From Chloroflexota bacterium (GTDB lineage: Bacteria > Chloroflexota > Anaerolineae > Aggregatilineales > Phototrophicaceae), in the NCBI GenBank assembly GCA_026707665.1, contig JAPOWK010000117.1, positions 16,901 through 80,900 of the forward strand: a stretch of 64,000 nt of DNA, given 5' to 3'. Made by a program: the position numbers and the translations under genes. Positions 16,383 to 22,633 of the stretch are shown in pieces. Below the pieces are notes generated by a model. The model worked only from the letters and a program-made list of their open reading frames with translations. It ran no database searches and had not been told where the DNA came from. Positions within the stretch are counted from its first letter, which is position 1. Every line of letters begins with the position of its first letter.

Positions 16383-18629
16383 CTAGCCTACAATCACGCC
16401 ATTGATGCGCTGTTCGGCTGTATGGACATTCTCGATGAAAAGCTGGGTTTCATCAATGATCTGATGAGCGTAGTCTTCGTTGATGCGCGTTGGCGTGCCT
16501 TCGTGCCGTTTGAACAGATAGCGGGCGAATTTGCCCTTGGCGAAGCGATCGTAAATCAATTCCGTGTCATAGAAGCGCGATCGGAATTCATCAACGATGG
16601 TGTCGTAGTCGTCGCCGACATCGAGATGTTTGGTGCGCACCAGCGCGCGCGCCGCCATGACCATCGCCTTATAGGCTTGCTCGTCCGCCAGCCGATAGTC
16701 GCCATCGTCCAGCGCCAGCAGCGCTTCGAATTGGGTCGATTCGGCTTTCGAGATTTCCATCGAAAAAAGCGAAACGACCTCGCCGGCGCATTCGCCGACG
16801 CCGATGTCATCAATGGTATAGACGCGCGAATCGCCCCAATCGCTGAAGTAGTCGGGACGTTCCTCAAAGCTGGGCAGCTTCATAAAGGGCTGCAGCATGG
16901 CTTTGATCTCTTTGCGGCCCAGAGCTTTGACCCAGGTTTGGAAGTTCTCGTCTTCGCCGCGTTCGGCGACATAGCGCTCGGTCAGCGCTTCAATGACATC
17001 GGGCACGCGCTTGGCCGGCACGGCGCCGACCGCCAAACCGTAGCTGCCGGCGTTCTGCTGCCATTGACCGCCGAGCACGACCTGGAAGTGCGGCAATTTG
17101 TGATTGCCGGAGCGGCGGCTGTTGCCGAAGAATCCGATATCGGCCACGTGATGCTGCCCGCAGGAGTTGAAGCAGCCGCTGACCTTGATCTTGAGCTCGC
17201 GCACGGGATCGGGCAGCAGGTTGATCTTTTCGATCAGACGCGTCCGCAGCTCGGCGGTCAAGCCGCGCGACGAGGCGATGCCGAGCTTGCAGGTGTCGGT
17301 GCCAGGGCAAGTCGTGATATCGACGATGGTCCCGGCGTTGGCATCGCCCAAGCCGATTTCGCAAAGATCGCGATAGATCGCCGGCAGATCGGAATCAGCC
17401 ACCCAGCGCAGGACGACATTCTGCTCAACCGAGAGACGTATGTTGTCGCCGACATAGCGGCGGGCGATATCGGCGAGTTGGAAACCTTGCAAGGCGGTGA
17501 AATCGCCGAGCGGCGTGTTCAGCGTGATGGTGCTGTAGCCGCTCTGCACCTGGCGGTAGACGTTGCTGCGATACCAGTCGTCGAAGCCCTCCGGCAGCGT
17601 CGCCCCGTTCAGCGCCATGCCCGCTTTGGCTGGCTCGTAGGTGAAATCGCTCAATGTCTCGATGTATGCCGTATGCCGGTCATCGTGCGGCACCGTTTTG
17701 AGTTCTTCTTCAACCTCGCGCCGAAACTCCTCAATGCCGAGCTTGGCGACCAGGAATTTGATGCGAGCACGGTTGCGATTCTTCTTCTCGCCAAGACGGG
17801 CGAAGACGCGCGCGACCGCTTGCGTCAGCGGCAGCAGCTCTTCTTCGGTGGCGAATTCCGCCAGCACCTTCGCCTGATGCGGCACTGTGCCCAGCCCACC
17901 ACCGACATACACGGTGAAGCCGCGGACGGTCTCGCCGTCGACTTCGCGCGATTGCGCCAGCAAGCCGAGGTCGTGCATCTTGACCAAGCCGCAGGCGTGA
18001 CCGGCGCAGCCCGAAAAGGCGACTTTGAATTTGCGGCCGAAGTCTTGCACATCATCGTGGTTGAGCAGGAAATGCGTCATGGCATCGGCGTAGGGGCTGA
18101 CATCAAAGACTTCATCATGGCAAACGCCGGCCAGCGTGCAAGCAGTGATGTTTCGTACCGAGTTGCCGCAGGCTTCCTGCGTGGTAATGCCGACAGCCGC
18201 CAGCCGCCGCATCAGGTCGGGCGTGTCGTCGATATGCACATAATGAAGCTGAATATCCTGGCGCGTGGTGATGTGCAGGATGCCGTCCGAATATTCGTCT
18301 GCCGTTTCCGAGAGCACTTCCAGCTGCTCGGCGGTCAATCCGCCATAAGGAATCTTGATGCGCTGCATGCCGGGCGCGTCCCAAAGGGTATCGGGACCCT
18401 TGACAACCTCGCCGGAGGGGTAAGCCAGATCACGGGTGCGCACGCCGTCATGTCTCTGTCCATTGTCGTAGCGCTGCCCATAGACGCCCTTACGAAGGCG
18501 CGCCTCGGCGAAGACTTTTTCGTCGAGCTTGCCTTGCTTGCGCAATTCCATTTGCGCTTCGTAAGTGTCGATAAGTTTGCCCCATTCCGCCGGGATCTCA
18601 TCCTTTAGAATCTCTTTCCAGGTCGTCAT
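16383..18629 (-). CDS. Ferredoxin-type nitrite/sulfite reductase with C-terminal helical (HEPN-like) extension
   Basis: Siroheme/4Fe-4S motifs TCPGTDTCKLGIASSRGL and KVSGCFNSCGQHHVADIGF; two-fold NIR/SIR repeat; about 110 aa extension after SRVYTIDDIGVGECAGEVV. Confidence 0.92.
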   Translation of the reverse strand: MTTWKEILKDEIPAEWGKLIDTYEAQMELRKQGKLDEKVFAEARLRKGVYGQRYDNGQRHDGVRTRDLAYPSGEVVKGPDTLWDAPGMQRIKIPYGGLTAEQLEVLSETADEYSDGILHITTRQDIQLHYVHIDDTPDLMRRLAAVGITTQEACGNSVRNITACTLAGVCHDEVFDVSPYADAMTHFLLNHDDVQDFGRKFKVAFSGCAGHACGLVKMHDLGLLAQSREVDGETVRGFTVYVGGGLGTVPHQAKVLAEFATEEELLPLTQAVARVFARLGEKKNRNRARIKFLVAKLGIEEFRREVEEELKTVPHDDRHTAYIETLSDFTYEPAKAGMALNGATLPEGFDDWYRSNVYRQVQSGYSTITLNTPLGDFTALQGFQLADIARRYVGDNIRLSVEQNVVLRWVADSDLPAIYRDLCEIGLGDANAGTIVDITTCPGTDTCKLGIASSRGLTAELRTRLIEKINLLPDPVRELKIKVSGCFNSCGQHHVADIGFFGNSRRSGNHKLPHFQVVLGGQWQQNAGSYGLAVGAVPAKRVPDVIEALTERYVAERGEDENFQTWVKALGRKEIKAMLQPFMKLPSFEERPDYFSDWGDSRVYTIDDIGVGECAGEVVSLFSMEISKAESTQFEALLALDDGDYRLADEQAYKAMVMAARALVRTKHLDVGDDYDTIVDEFRSRFYDTELIYDRFAKGKFARYLFKRHEGTPTRINEDYAHQIIDETQLFIENVHTAEQRINGVIVG

Positions 18630-18650
18630 GTCTGTTCCTTTCTCTGTTAC

Positions 18651-18693
18651 ACCCCATCCCCAGGCCCCTTCCCCAGCCAGCTAGGGAAGGGGA
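18651..18693. repeat. Hairpin repeat, family A, inside the cobA-SiR intergenic gap
   Basis: ACCCCATCCCCAGGCCCCTTCCCCAGCCAGCTAGGGAAGGGG. Confidence 0.8.
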
Positions 18694-18749
18694 GCGAAAT
18701 GCAGCGGACACAAGGTAAATTGCGTGGGCGGCGGTTTCTCCGCTCGCGT

Positions 18750-19529
18750 CTACAAAGCCATCAATACTTCTTTCTGCAACACGTCGAACCAGGCGACGCC
18801 CGCTTGACGCAGCCGCACGACATCGCCAACAACCGTGATTGCCGGCGGTTGAATGTGCTCTGCCCGCGCGATGCCCGCGATCGTGTCGAGCGTACCGATT
18901 CGTGTGCGCTGGCGCCGGGTTGCGCCCCATTCGATGACGGCGGCTGGCGTCTCGCCATCCAGGCCATGATTCTGCAATTGGCGCGTGATCTCGCAAAGCC
19001 GCATGACGCCCATCATGATGACGATGGTGCCGCCAATCTGCGCGAGTGCGGCGTAGTTGATGCTGCTCTCGGGTTTCGTCGGATCTTCATGTCCGGTAAT
19101 CACCGTGAATGAACTGCTGACGTGGCGGTGCGTCAAGGGAATGCCGGCGTATGCGGGAACCGCATTGACGCTCGATACGCCAGGTACAATCTCGAAGGGG
19201 ATGCCATGTTGGCGGCAAGCCAGCGCTTCCTCTCCGCCTCGGCCGAAGACGAGCGGGTCGCCCCCTTTGAGCCGGACGACATCGTAGCCTTGGAGCGCGC
19301 GGTCCAGCAAGATTGCGTTGATCTCTTCCTGCGCCAGGCGATGACGCTTTGGCTGTTTGCCCGCGTCAATCAGTTCGGCATCGGGGCGCGTCTCTTCCAG
19401 CAGTTCGAATGGTATCAGCCGATCGTAGACGACGACATCCGCGCGCCGCAAAAGTCGCAGACCCTTGACGGTAATCAAGTCACTATCGCCGGGACCAGCG
19501 CCGACCAGGTAGACCACCCCACTGCTCAT
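18750..19529 (-). CDS. cobA: Uroporphyrinogen-III C-methyltransferase
   Basis: VYLVGAGPGDSDLITVKGLRLLRRADVVVYDRL; VRLKGGDPLVFGRGGEEA. Confidence 0.95.
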   Translation of the reverse strand: MSSGVVYLVGAGPGDSDLITVKGLRLLRRADVVVYDRLIPFELLEETRPDAELIDAGKQPKRHRLAQEEINAILLDRALQGYDVVRLKGGDPLVFGRGGEEALACRQHGIPFEIVPGVSSVNAVPAYAGIPLTHRHVSSSFTVITGHEDPTKPESSINYAALAQIGGTIVIMMGVMRLCEITRQLQNHGLDGETPAAVIEWGATRRQRTRIGTLDTIAGIARAEHIQPPAITVVGDVVRLRQAGVAWFDVLQKEVLMAL

Positions 19530-20857
19530 GACGCGCGGCTCTCCAACTGTCTGGCGGTCGAAAGCCAAAGATTGCAGGCAGACCGACACGGCAAGGTCGC
19601 GCCTGCGTCGCCGGGGGACCACCAGGCCGGCTCCCGCACACAATTTCCGCAGATCTTGTCCAATGTCATTTCAATCACGTTCTGTGGCAGGCGGTGAATG
19701 TCTTTGAACATGCCGTTTTGCCGCAGCCCGATATCCTCCAATGATTCACTCTTTAGCGCGCCGCGCTTATTCGCCGCCCAGTCGGCGACCAGACCAGGAT
19801 AAATGGTTTCGATCACGGCATGCGCGTCTTGGGCAGCATCCAGGTCTACACGCCAGCCGGCAGGCAAATCCGCGCTTGTCACCAAGGGACGGAAGGGATT
19901 CTCGCGTATGAATGCCCGCAATTCCGCCGGCGCCGAGAGCGCGATGCCGTCTGTTTCATTGTCTCGATGCCAGGCGCGCTCTTCATTTACCATCACTTGG
20001 CCGAATTGTAGAATTTTCTCTGATTCCAGTGCTTGTAGCAAGACACGTCTTCCGGCGCGGGGGAAATGGCGCCAGTTGCCTGTGCTGTCCTTCCGCTGAA
20101 GCGGCAGGCCGGTTTCGCGCGCCAGATCGAGAATGAGCTGGCAAATTGACTCGTCGGCGCCGACCGGTTCGCTGTAGTAGACCGAGCGATCTCTGACCCG
20201 ATTGACCGAATCCAATTCCGCGATGCCGAGCGCGCGTGGAATATCTTGGCGAACGTGCGAGCCGTCAGCCACGAAGTAGGGCAGCGCTATGATATGAGGA
20301 GCGCTTGTGCGTTCGTAGAGGCTGGGAATGTCTGGCTCATCATCGAGATAGACATCGACCGCCTCGCCGAGCCAATTCAATTCGCGAATGCGCTCAGCCT
20401 GATGCCGCGCGGTGTCCCGGCTTTGACGGTTGCGGCTGGTGCCATGACCGATGATGGCGGCGGCGGTTTGTTCGGGCGCCAATTCGTATCGATCTACGAT
20501 GGCGCGCAGTTGCCGTTCAACGATTGACTTCAGCTGAGGATGTTCCCCGAGCGGTCGCGTCAACTGAATCCGCTTGCCAGCGCGTAGCGTAGAATCGCCC
20601 GCCAGGCCAAACTCGGTCGGGATCACTTCGCTGGTGAAGTAGCCGCGCGCCGTGAAGACCGGTACGATGACGACATCGTCCGCTTCGACCGTGTCCAGAA
20701 CTTGTGAGAAGGGCGGCGCTTCCTTCCAGAAGCAAGCGGTGATCTCGTCGGCGACGCCCCAGCGGCGCAAGCGGTCGACGGCGCTCCAGACGATGCCGGC
20801 TGTATTGGCGCTGACATGGGAGCCGTGCCCGGCCAGGATCAGAGCGACTCCGCTCAC
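19526..20857 (-). CDS. Sirohydrochlorin chelatase (CbiX-like) fused to DR2241-type Fe-S domain
   Basis: VALILAGHGSH and AAAIIGHGTSRN CbiX repeats; C-terminal CGNCVREPAWWSPGDAGATLPCRSACNLW cysteine cluster; 4-nt overlaps with both neighbours. Confidence 0.85.
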   Translation of the reverse strand: MSGVALILAGHGSHVSANTAGIVWSAVDRLRRWGVADEITACFWKEAPPFSQVLDTVEADDVVIVPVFTARGYFTSEVIPTEFGLAGDSTLRAGKRIQLTRPLGEHPQLKSIVERQLRAIVDRYELAPEQTAAAIIGHGTSRNRQSRDTARHQAERIRELNWLGEAVDVYLDDEPDIPSLYERTSAPHIIALPYFVADGSHVRQDIPRALGIAELDSVNRVRDRSVYYSEPVGADESICQLILDLARETGLPLQRKDSTGNWRHFPRAGRRVLLQALESEKILQFGQVMVNEERAWHRDNETDGIALSAPAELRAFIRENPFRPLVTSADLPAGWRVDLDAAQDAHAVIETIYPGLVADWAANKRGALKSESLEDIGLRQNGMFKDIHRLPQNVIEMTLDKICGNCVREPAWWSPGDAGATLPCRSACNLWLSTARQLESRAS

Positions 20858-21504
20858 TCGGCTATTCCCTTCTGCACGATCTGCTGAAAGACAGAGCGCG
20901 CTTGCTCGGGCTTGCCGTCGCGAAGGAGGGCGAGCACATCCGAATTCAAGACATCTTGGTAAAGCGCTTGGCGAGCAGGCTGCGAGCCATTTACTTCCTG
21001 CGCGCACTCACGATAGGCGCCCAGCCAATCGGCGAGTATGGCGTATTCTTCACCGATGTCCTCAGCCAGCTTGGCTTTGAGCGCTCGCAGCAGAGCCGGC
21101 GATTTGCCGCCCGTGCTCAACGCGACAGTGAGCGGCGGCTTGTTAATCTGCGCCATGTTGCTAAAGTCGCTGTCCATGCTGCTGCCGTTCGCTACATTGC
21201 AGAGGGCGCGGATGCGATGCGCGTCTTGGGCAACTGTCTGATTGACGCGCTCGTCATCGGTCGCGGCGATGACCAGGACGGGCATGTAGTCGTTGAACAT
21301 GTCGCGCTGATATTTGGATTGGATCCAGACGAACGCGCCCTGGTCCAAGATTTCGCGCATAGCTGGCGCAATCTCCGGGCTGATCAGAAAAACGCGCGCG
21401 CCCGCTTGCAGCAGTCGCTCGACCTTGCGCGCCGCGACCCGCCCGCCGCCCACAACGGCGACCGGCTTGTCTTGCAAGTGCAGCATGATTGGATAGCCGC
21501 TCAT
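20854..21504 (-). CDS. Precorrin-2 dehydrogenase / sirohydrochlorin ferrochelatase (Met8p/SirC/CysG N-terminal type)
   Basis: PIMLHLQDKPVAVVGGGRVAARKVERLLQAGARVFLISPEI; start MSGYPIML at 21504, not the ORF-track start. Confidence 0.92.
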   Translation of the reverse strand: MSGYPIMLHLQDKPVAVVGGGRVAARKVERLLQAGARVFLISPEIAPAMREILDQGAFVWIQSKYQRDMFNDYMPVLVIAATDDERVNQTVAQDAHRIRALCNVANGSSMDSDFSNMAQINKPPLTVALSTGGKSPALLRALKAKLAEDIGEEYAILADWLGAYRECAQEVNGSQPARQALYQDVLNSDVLALLRDGKPEQARSVFQQIVQKGIAE

Positions 21505-21508
21505 TGAT

Positions 21509-22228
21509 TTATGCCTCGACGCTGCGTGCCGCGAGTGAAGGCAGCGGCAAGTGAATGCCACACTCGATCTTGCCCTGGTTCGCCCAGCGGCCGCTGCGGA
21601 GATGGTCGTCTTCGCCCGCGGCTTTGGTGCAGGTCCAGCAACCGATGCTGGGATAGCCAATATCGTGCAGGCGGTTGTAGGGCAGGTCGTGCTCATGAAT
21701 GTATTGCCAGACAGCTTCCTCGGTCCAGTTGGCGAAGGGCGCGATTTTGATGGATCGGTTGCGCGCGTCGCGGCTGATGATTGGCGTGGCAGCGCGCTGC
21801 GAAGACTGATCGCGGCGCACGCCAGTGACCCAGGCGTCAAAACCGACGAGGGCGTCGCGCAAGGGAATGGTCTTGCGGATATGGCAGCAGCGATCGGGGT
21901 TGCGCTCCCATAGGCGATCGCCATAGTCGCGGGCTTGCTGCGCCGGCGTCTGACGCGGTTTGATGCGCCGCAGATCAAGATTGAAGCGCGCTTCCAGATT
22001 GTCCATCAGGTCCTGCGTCTCGGGGAAGAGCAAGCCCGTATCCAGCGTCAGCACGGGCGTACGCGGCGCGATGCGCTGCATCATGTGCAGGGTCGCGATG
22101 CCGGTCACCTGAAAGCTGGTAACGATGGCGAGTTTGTCGCCGAATGAATCGCTCGCCCAGGTCAGAATCTCGAATGGGCTGGCTGTTTCAAATTGCTCGG
22201 CGTGTGACTGAATCTGTGAGTTTAGCAT
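21509..22228 (-). CDS. cysH: Assimilatory adenylyl-sulfate (APS) reductase, Fe-S type
   Basis: CCHIRKTIPL, GCWTCTKAAGEDDHLRSGRWANQGKIECGIH (CC...CxxC plus catalytic ECGIH). Confidence 0.93.
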   Translation of the reverse strand: MLNSQIQSHAEQFETASPFEILTWASDSFGDKLAIVTSFQVTGIATLHMMQRIAPRTPVLTLDTGLLFPETQDLMDNLEARFNLDLRRIKPRQTPAQQARDYGDRLWERNPDRCCHIRKTIPLRDALVGFDAWVTGVRRDQSSQRAATPIISRDARNRSIKIAPFANWTEEAVWQYIHEHDLPYNRLHDIGYPSIGCWTCTKAAGEDDHLRSGRWANQGKIECGIHLPLPSLAARSVEA

Positions 22229-22264: not shown

Positions 22265-22292
22265 AAAAAGCGCCTCGGATTATCCGAAGCGC
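22265..22292 (-). terminator. Intrinsic terminator/attenuator 1 (proximal to cysH)
   Basis: Minus strand GCGCTTCGGATAATCCGAGGCGCTTTTT: 11-bp stem (one G-U) plus T5, between leader ORF 1 and cysH. Confidence 0.9.
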
Positions 22293-22311: not shown

Positions 22312-22407
22312 TCACCGGCTACATCGCTGCGCCGGCCGCGGATAACCCTGCCGAATCGGCACGGTACAACAACAGTCCGGACAACAGCACATCATTTTTG
22401 CGATCAT
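22312..22407 (-). CDS. Cysteine-rich leader peptide 1: MIAKMMCCCPDCCCTVPIRQGYPRPAQRCSR
   Basis: ATG with GAGG 7 nt upstream (GAAGAGGAACTAGAATG); 7 Cys in 31 codons, CCCPDCCC; followed by terminator. Confidence 0.85.
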   Translation of the reverse strand: MIAKMMCCCPDCCCTVPIRQGYPRPAQRCSR

Positions 22408-22434: not shown

Positions 22435-22460
22435 AAAAAAGCCCCGTGTCGTCACGGGGC
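22435..22460 (-). terminator. Intrinsic terminator/attenuator 2 (distal)
   Basis: Minus strand GCCCCGTGACGACACGGGGCTTTTTT: perfect 8-bp stem, 4-nt loop, T6. Confidence 0.93.
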
Positions 22461-22494
22461 ATCTCGATTCTGCTTGCTGCGCGTCAATCACGAT

Positions 22495-22587
22495 CTAGCA
22501 AAGCGCCACCGTACGACTCTCGGTCGAACCTGTCTGACAACAACACGGACAGCAGCACAAGCAAGTCACAAATGAAATCTTACTCAT
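22495..22587 (-). CDS. Cysteine-rich leader peptide 2: MSKISFVTCLCCCPCCCQTGSTESRTVALC
   Basis: ATG start about 10 nt after predicted TSS; 8 Cys in 30 codons, CLCCCPCCC; followed by terminator. Confidence 0.85.
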   Translation of the reverse strand: MSKISFVTCLCCCPCCCQTGSTESRTVALC

Positions 22588-22604: not shown

Positions 22605-22633
22605 AGCTTAGCGCAAACTTCAATATCTGTCAA
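22605..22633 (-). promoter_or_regulatory. Sigma70-like promoter of the cys leader/operon
   Basis: Minus strand TTGACA (22633-22628), 17-nt spacer, TAAGCT (22610-22605). Confidence 0.75.

Follow-up and report, generated by a model that had tools for sequence, protein, structure and literature searches.

Two cysteine-codon leaders with intrinsic terminators upstream of cysH in Anaerolineae: predicted transcription attenuators in series

How might a short ORF rich in cysteine codons, followed by an intrinsic terminator, act on the sulfur assimilation genes downstream, and why would a second unit of the same kind stand between the two? The question arose from a leader ORF predicted in a 64,000-nt stretch of genomic DNA, hereafter the window, which lies within contig C33 of a 4.67-Mb genome of 164 contigs. 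Comparison with related loci makes it very likely that two ribosome-mediated transcription attenuators with cysteine codons stand in series before cysH, this element being the first. The metagenome-assembled genomes that share the pattern of the second leader belong to the Anaerolineae (Chloroflexota).

Architecture of the cysH leader region

The first structural gene, cysH, is followed by genes assigned through Pfam, in this order, to a siroheme synthase N-domain, a CbiX-type chelatase, a tetrapyrrole methylase, and a two-module sulfite/nitrite reductase (Table 1). This gene set is suited to the reduction of activated sulfate to sulfide, the sulfur source of cysteine. The short-chain dehydrogenase gene upstream of the leader region is unrelated to the operon. 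A putative promoter of the form TTGACA/G-17-TAnnnT lies directly 5' of leader 1 in 22/24 aligned loci of the genus; its copy in the window scored under the cut-off of a generic promoter scan. Since no promoter of this type was seen between the leader units, one transcript probably spans both. At two genus loci (L003 and L008), the DNA 5' of leader 1 is unlike that of the others and lacks the TTGACA promoter, which suggests a rearrangement or a new promoter.

Table 1. Features of the cysH leader region and operon, in window coordinates
Feature	Position	Strand	Sequence or remark	Basis
Predicted promoter	22605..22633	-	-35 TTGACA 22633-22628; -10 TAAGCT 22610-22605; 17-nt spacer	genus conservation
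Leader 1 ORF	22495..22569	-	VTCLCCCPCCCQTGSTESRTVALC; likely start GTG 22569; in-frame ATG 22587 possible, not conserved	conserved start
Cys run of leader 1	22537..22545	-	UGU UGU UGU, conserved	
1:2 hairpin of leader 1	22514..22526	-	CGAC/GUCG; CUAUC/GAUAG instead in relatives	
Antiterminator 5' strand (region 2)	22505..22517	-	GUCGUACGGUGGC	
Intrinsic terminator 1	22441..22460	-	5' arm and loop 22460-22448 = region 3	
Leader 2 ORF	22312..22407	-	MIAKMMCCCPDCCCTVPIRQGYPRPAQRCSR; Shine-Dalgarno AGAGGA	
1:2 hairpin core of leader 2	22349..22361	-	UGCCG/CGGCA; UA/CG/AU compensatory changes	
Antiterminator strand of leader 2	22339..22347	-	GGUUAUCCG	
Hairpin just 5' of leader 2 stop	22315..22335	-	CCGGC/GCCGG; CUGGC/GCCAG in relatives	
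Intrinsic terminator 2	22270..22292	-	GCGCUUCGGAUAAUCCGAGGCGC, then UUUUU	
cysH (PAPS/APS reductase), first structural gene	21509..22228	-		Pfam PF01507, E=2e-49
Putative operon genes 3' of cysH	16383..21558	-		Pfam

Six of seven codons in the core of leader 1 (CCCPCCC) and six of eight in that of leader 2 (CCCPDCCC) encode Cys, and both patterns are kept in the genus; the main Cys run of leader 1 ends 13 codons before its stop. The original prediction had read leader 1 from ATG 22587 to TAG 22495 on the minus strand, a frame that is indeed present and encodes MSKISFVTCLCCCPCCCQTGSTESRTVALC, and had taken it for the distal one of two leaders, as is borne out by the position of leader 2 and terminator 2 between the leader 1 unit and cysH. 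Its proposal of a near-leaderless start, about 10 nt after the predicted transcription start site (TSS), is not supported for this genome. The ATG at 22587, which would leave a 5'UTR of ~11 nt in the window, is found at this position in only 2/24 genus loci (L001 and L005), and the near-leaderless start is rejected for the window genome because the close relatives L002 and L004 lack that codon. Most genus loci have an in-frame ATG or GTG 33-36 nt past the end of the -10 hexamer. The window equivalent is GTG 22569; two of the nearest relatives, L002 and L004, have only a GTG at this position. A start there would give a 5'UTR of ~29 nt, with a weak Shine-Dalgarno sequence. In a subclade of three loci (L022-L024), an in-frame ATG of leader 1 stands 6 nt past the -10 hexamer and coincides with the predicted TSS, so leader 1 in this subclade may be leaderless in the strict sense.

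Terminator 1 was found in the sequence just as predicted, as the hairpin GCCCCGUG-ACGA-CACGGGGC at 22460-22441 followed by UUUUUU. The competing antiterminator had been described as eight pairs with a bulged U; these pairs are present between UACGGUGGC (22513-22505) and GCCCCGUG (22460-22453), but they form only the inner part of a larger helix that takes in the terminator loop. The full helix joins GUCGUACGGUGGC (22517-22505) to GCCCCGUGACGAC (22460-22448) through 12 pairs with two single-base bulges (GUCGU-ACGG-U-GGC on the leader side). Tested on the window alone against dinucleotide shuffles, this duplex is more stable than expected (p=0.017), and the corresponding leader 2 duplex does not reach significance (p=0.14). 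In the pairing comparison, antiterminator 1 forms 88.5% of cells, compared with 30-57% when slid. A further hairpin between the leader 1 stop and terminator 1 (window 22497-22460; UUGCU/AGCAA, GUC..GAC) seems to recur in altered form in relatives.

Conservation and coupled change of leaders and terminators

Loci of cysH from the same genus were collected, and both Cys leaders and both terminators are present by eye in all 24 that were aligned (L001-L024), these sampled relatives being related to one another and not independent samples. An automatic scan that called for at least one leader with a terminator was positive for 31/32 loci of the genus, 18/45 loci from the rest of the order, and 1/40 from the rest of the class. 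Its rule scores two units in only 23/32 genus loci, whereas by eye both are present in every aligned one. In 12 of the 18 positive loci from the rest of the order the scan found two units, and tandem leaders extend beyond the genus to further genera and families within the order (L070, L072, L076, L077, L079, L080, L082, L084, L087, L090, L092, and L093). Loci with a single leader outside the genus include L027, L091, and L098. No leader was detected by the automatic scan at 27/45 cysH loci of the order outside the genus; at some of them cysH is perhaps not the first gene of its operon, rather than the leader having been lost. Cys run and terminator are 53-77 nt apart.

The possibility that the poly-Cys ORFs arose by chance is ruled out by this conservation together with two controls: the antisense strand gave 0/117 positives in the automatic scan, and in the residue control residues other than Cys were rare, except Met, which was found alongside Cys. 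Within the same genome, no other small poly-Cys ORF followed by a terminator (within 110 nt) and lying outside large ORFs was found among the inspected sites, which comprised the CC.CCC and CCC.CCC sites plus 30/63 CC.CC matches. One locus from a different family of the class (L126:35-144) has a lone Cys leader, MCMCCCLCLPAPWWGTSL, and a terminator ~585 nt upstream of cysH; a promoter-like TTGACA stands between this leader and the gene.

The Cys codons of the leaders are 206 UGU to 85 UGC, compared with 7 UGU to 99 UGC in cysH of the same species; slower reading of UGU may sharpen sensing, or the excess may reflect RNA constraints. Met accounts for 45/203 (22%) of the non-Cys residues in 12-codon windows around the Cys clusters of leaders from the rest of the order (L027, L072-L102), perhaps through joint sensing of Cys and Met or because NTG codons are favoured ahead of UGU.

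Within the genus, compensatory changes occur in the 1:2 hairpin of leader 2 and in the hairpin at its stop codon. None were found in antiterminator 1, because it is too conserved there, and its support comes from comparisons between genera. Sequences diverge between genera and the pairing of leader with terminator is kept, e.g., UUCGUUCGG-U-GG with CC-CCGAACGAA for leader 1 of L072 and GUGUUCCGG with CCGGAGCGC for leader 2 of L077. Among divergent loci, hand-picked together with their anchors and terminators from those with a visible leader and terminator after some pairings had been noticed by eye, the leader 1 duplex averages -15.4 kcal/mol with its own terminator versus -11.6 kcal/mol with foreign ones (n=20), and the leader 2 duplex -14.0 versus -11.9 kcal/mol (n=14); a few units were omitted, one of them for a failed anchor. 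For both leaders, none of 20,000 permutations was as good as the own pairing, even with relatives among the foreign pairs. In both leader sets the mean z relative to dinucleotide shuffles is about -2; single loci vary, and the predicted duplexes of several divergent loci are weak. As far as sequences can tell, leader and terminator change together across genera. The pairing strand of leader 2 falls past the end of the ORF or spans its stop codon in L072 and L079; its complementarity must therefore be an RNA constraint, and conservation of the peptide offers no explanation.

Predicted attenuation and alternative readings

We propose the following course of events. With plentiful Cys-tRNA, the ribosome would reach the stop codon of leader 1 and mask region 2, so that terminator 1 could form and transcription would end. 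With scarce Cys-tRNA, the ribosome would stall at the UGU codons of leader 1, leaving region 2 (GUCGUACGGUGGC) to pair with the 5' arm and loop of terminator 1, and the polymerase would continue to leader 2, where the same kind of decision would be repeated ahead of cysH. Since both gates would answer to the same signal in series, their read-through probabilities should multiply, which would yield tight repression and a steep response.

The folding of leader 1 follows this logic, the classical one of attenuation. When a ribosome footprint was placed on the leader and the transcript was folded up to the terminator loop, the probability of the antiterminator in the window was 0.81-0.89 with the ribosome stalled at the main Cys codons, 0.00 with it at the stop codon, and 0.36 without one. 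Means over the 24 genus loci, in pairs per arm base, were 1.09/0.98 stalled, 0.25 at the stop, and 0.58 without a ribosome. Ribosome-masked folding, conservation, and the coupled change between genera strongly support the earlier prediction of a cysteine-responsive attenuator in which antiterminator and terminator exclude each other. With the full terminator present, equilibrium folding always favours it; the choice between the two structures must thus be kinetic, as is usual in attenuators. The equilibrium model does not tell a ribosome stalled on leader 2 from one that has completed it, either in the window or across the genus, and for this reason we infer its switch only from anatomy and coupled change.

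Leader 2 might be the sole regulator of cysH, with leader 1 and terminator 1 a relic or a fixed brake. The weak Shine-Dalgarno sequence of leader 1 (median -3.15 vs -6.4 kcal/mol) and the existence of single-leader loci (L027, L091, and L098) would fit such an arrangement; however, leader 1 is present genus-wide, its antiterminator tracks the changes of its terminator, and its folding logic is cleaner than that of leader 2, so we regard this arrangement as quite improbable.

Stalling at the poly-Cys codons could instead affect downstream translation, as in mycobacteria, with the hairpins incidental. Poly-Cys uORFs do precede cys operons in mycobacteria (PMC1262725; Canestrari et al. 2020, as cited in PMC9031893), and leader 1 of L022-L024 is apparently leaderless in a similar way. 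Nevertheless, each leader has its own intrinsic terminator and coupled antiterminator, and direct coupling of leader 1 to cysH is implausible because terminator 1, leader 2, and terminator 2 lie between them; translational attenuation is accordingly a highly improbable account of the locus. It is most improbable of all that the leader products work as peptides (e.g., metal- or thiol-binding small proteins) with the terminators as ordinary ends of small genes, for although the Cys residues are strongly conserved and the C-terminus of leader 2 is kept inside the genus, the peptides show no conservation between genera outside the Cys run, and the RNA pairing strands, which persist even outside the ORF, fall in their C-terminal part.

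Relation to known attenuators

In its working principle, the predicted series of attenuators resembles trp/his-type attenuation rather than the mycobacterial poly-Cys uORFs. As in trp/his-type systems, the codons of the pathway product are concentrated in a short ORF, alternative 1:2, 2:3, and 3:4 helices can be drawn, an intrinsic terminator precedes the first gene of a biosynthetic operon, and the antiterminator is exclusive with the terminator, this last feature being weaker for leader 2 of the window taken alone. The differences are that Cys takes the place of Trp or His, that two attenuators stand in series, that the antiterminator includes the terminator loop, and that the host belongs to the Anaerolineae (Chloroflexota).

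The likeness to leaderless poly-Cys ORFs of mycobacteria, drawn in the original prediction, extends to the poly-Cys codons of a short ORF before cys genes; a leaderless start is seen only in L022-L024, and leader 1 of the window is probably not leaderless. Terminators are absent from the mycobacterial leaders, whose Cys runs lie near the stop codon (PMC1262725); in the papers that cite Canestrari et al. (2020) they are presented as leaderless, cysteine-responsive attenuators of translation (PMC9031893, PMC13236596). The mechanism at cysH would be unlike theirs, because here intrinsic terminators are paired with antiterminators; the Cys run, too, is placed farther from the stop.

Closer in kind is uORFC-8-2 before cysS of Rhodobacterales, a conservation-based prediction of a Cys-codon attenuator with an intrinsic terminator (PMC8632094). 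It differs in gene, lineage, and structure, having two Cys codons and a single attenuator. Two short ORFs, each in an attenuator, share one leader in Salmonella mgtCBR, where the signals are ATP and proline (PMC3641672); that paper contrasts the mgtCBR leader with one bearing two intrinsic terminators. In the cysH leader region, by contrast, both units have codons for the same amino acid and each has an intrinsic terminator. Identity with a known RNA family was rejected, as Rfam covariance models (riboswitches, T-boxes, and curated leaders) gave no match at gathering thresholds in the window; the terminator hairpin drew only F6 hits below threshold. In the open-access literature searched, outside which most subscription papers lie, we came across neither a description of two amino-acid attenuators that answer to one signal in series nor one of a Cys attenuator with terminator and antiterminator in Chloroflexota.

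We consider the evidence evenly balanced on whether the arrangement is a long-conserved design at the level of the order, in which two complete same-signal attenuators in series would form a multiplicative gate on sulfate assimilation, possibly reading Met in addition to Cys, with Met seen in the relatives. With both copies conserved across genera, the question of why one operon would be gated twice on one signal lends itself to direct testing, and the system offers a ready model for the joint evolution of antiterminators and terminator loops.
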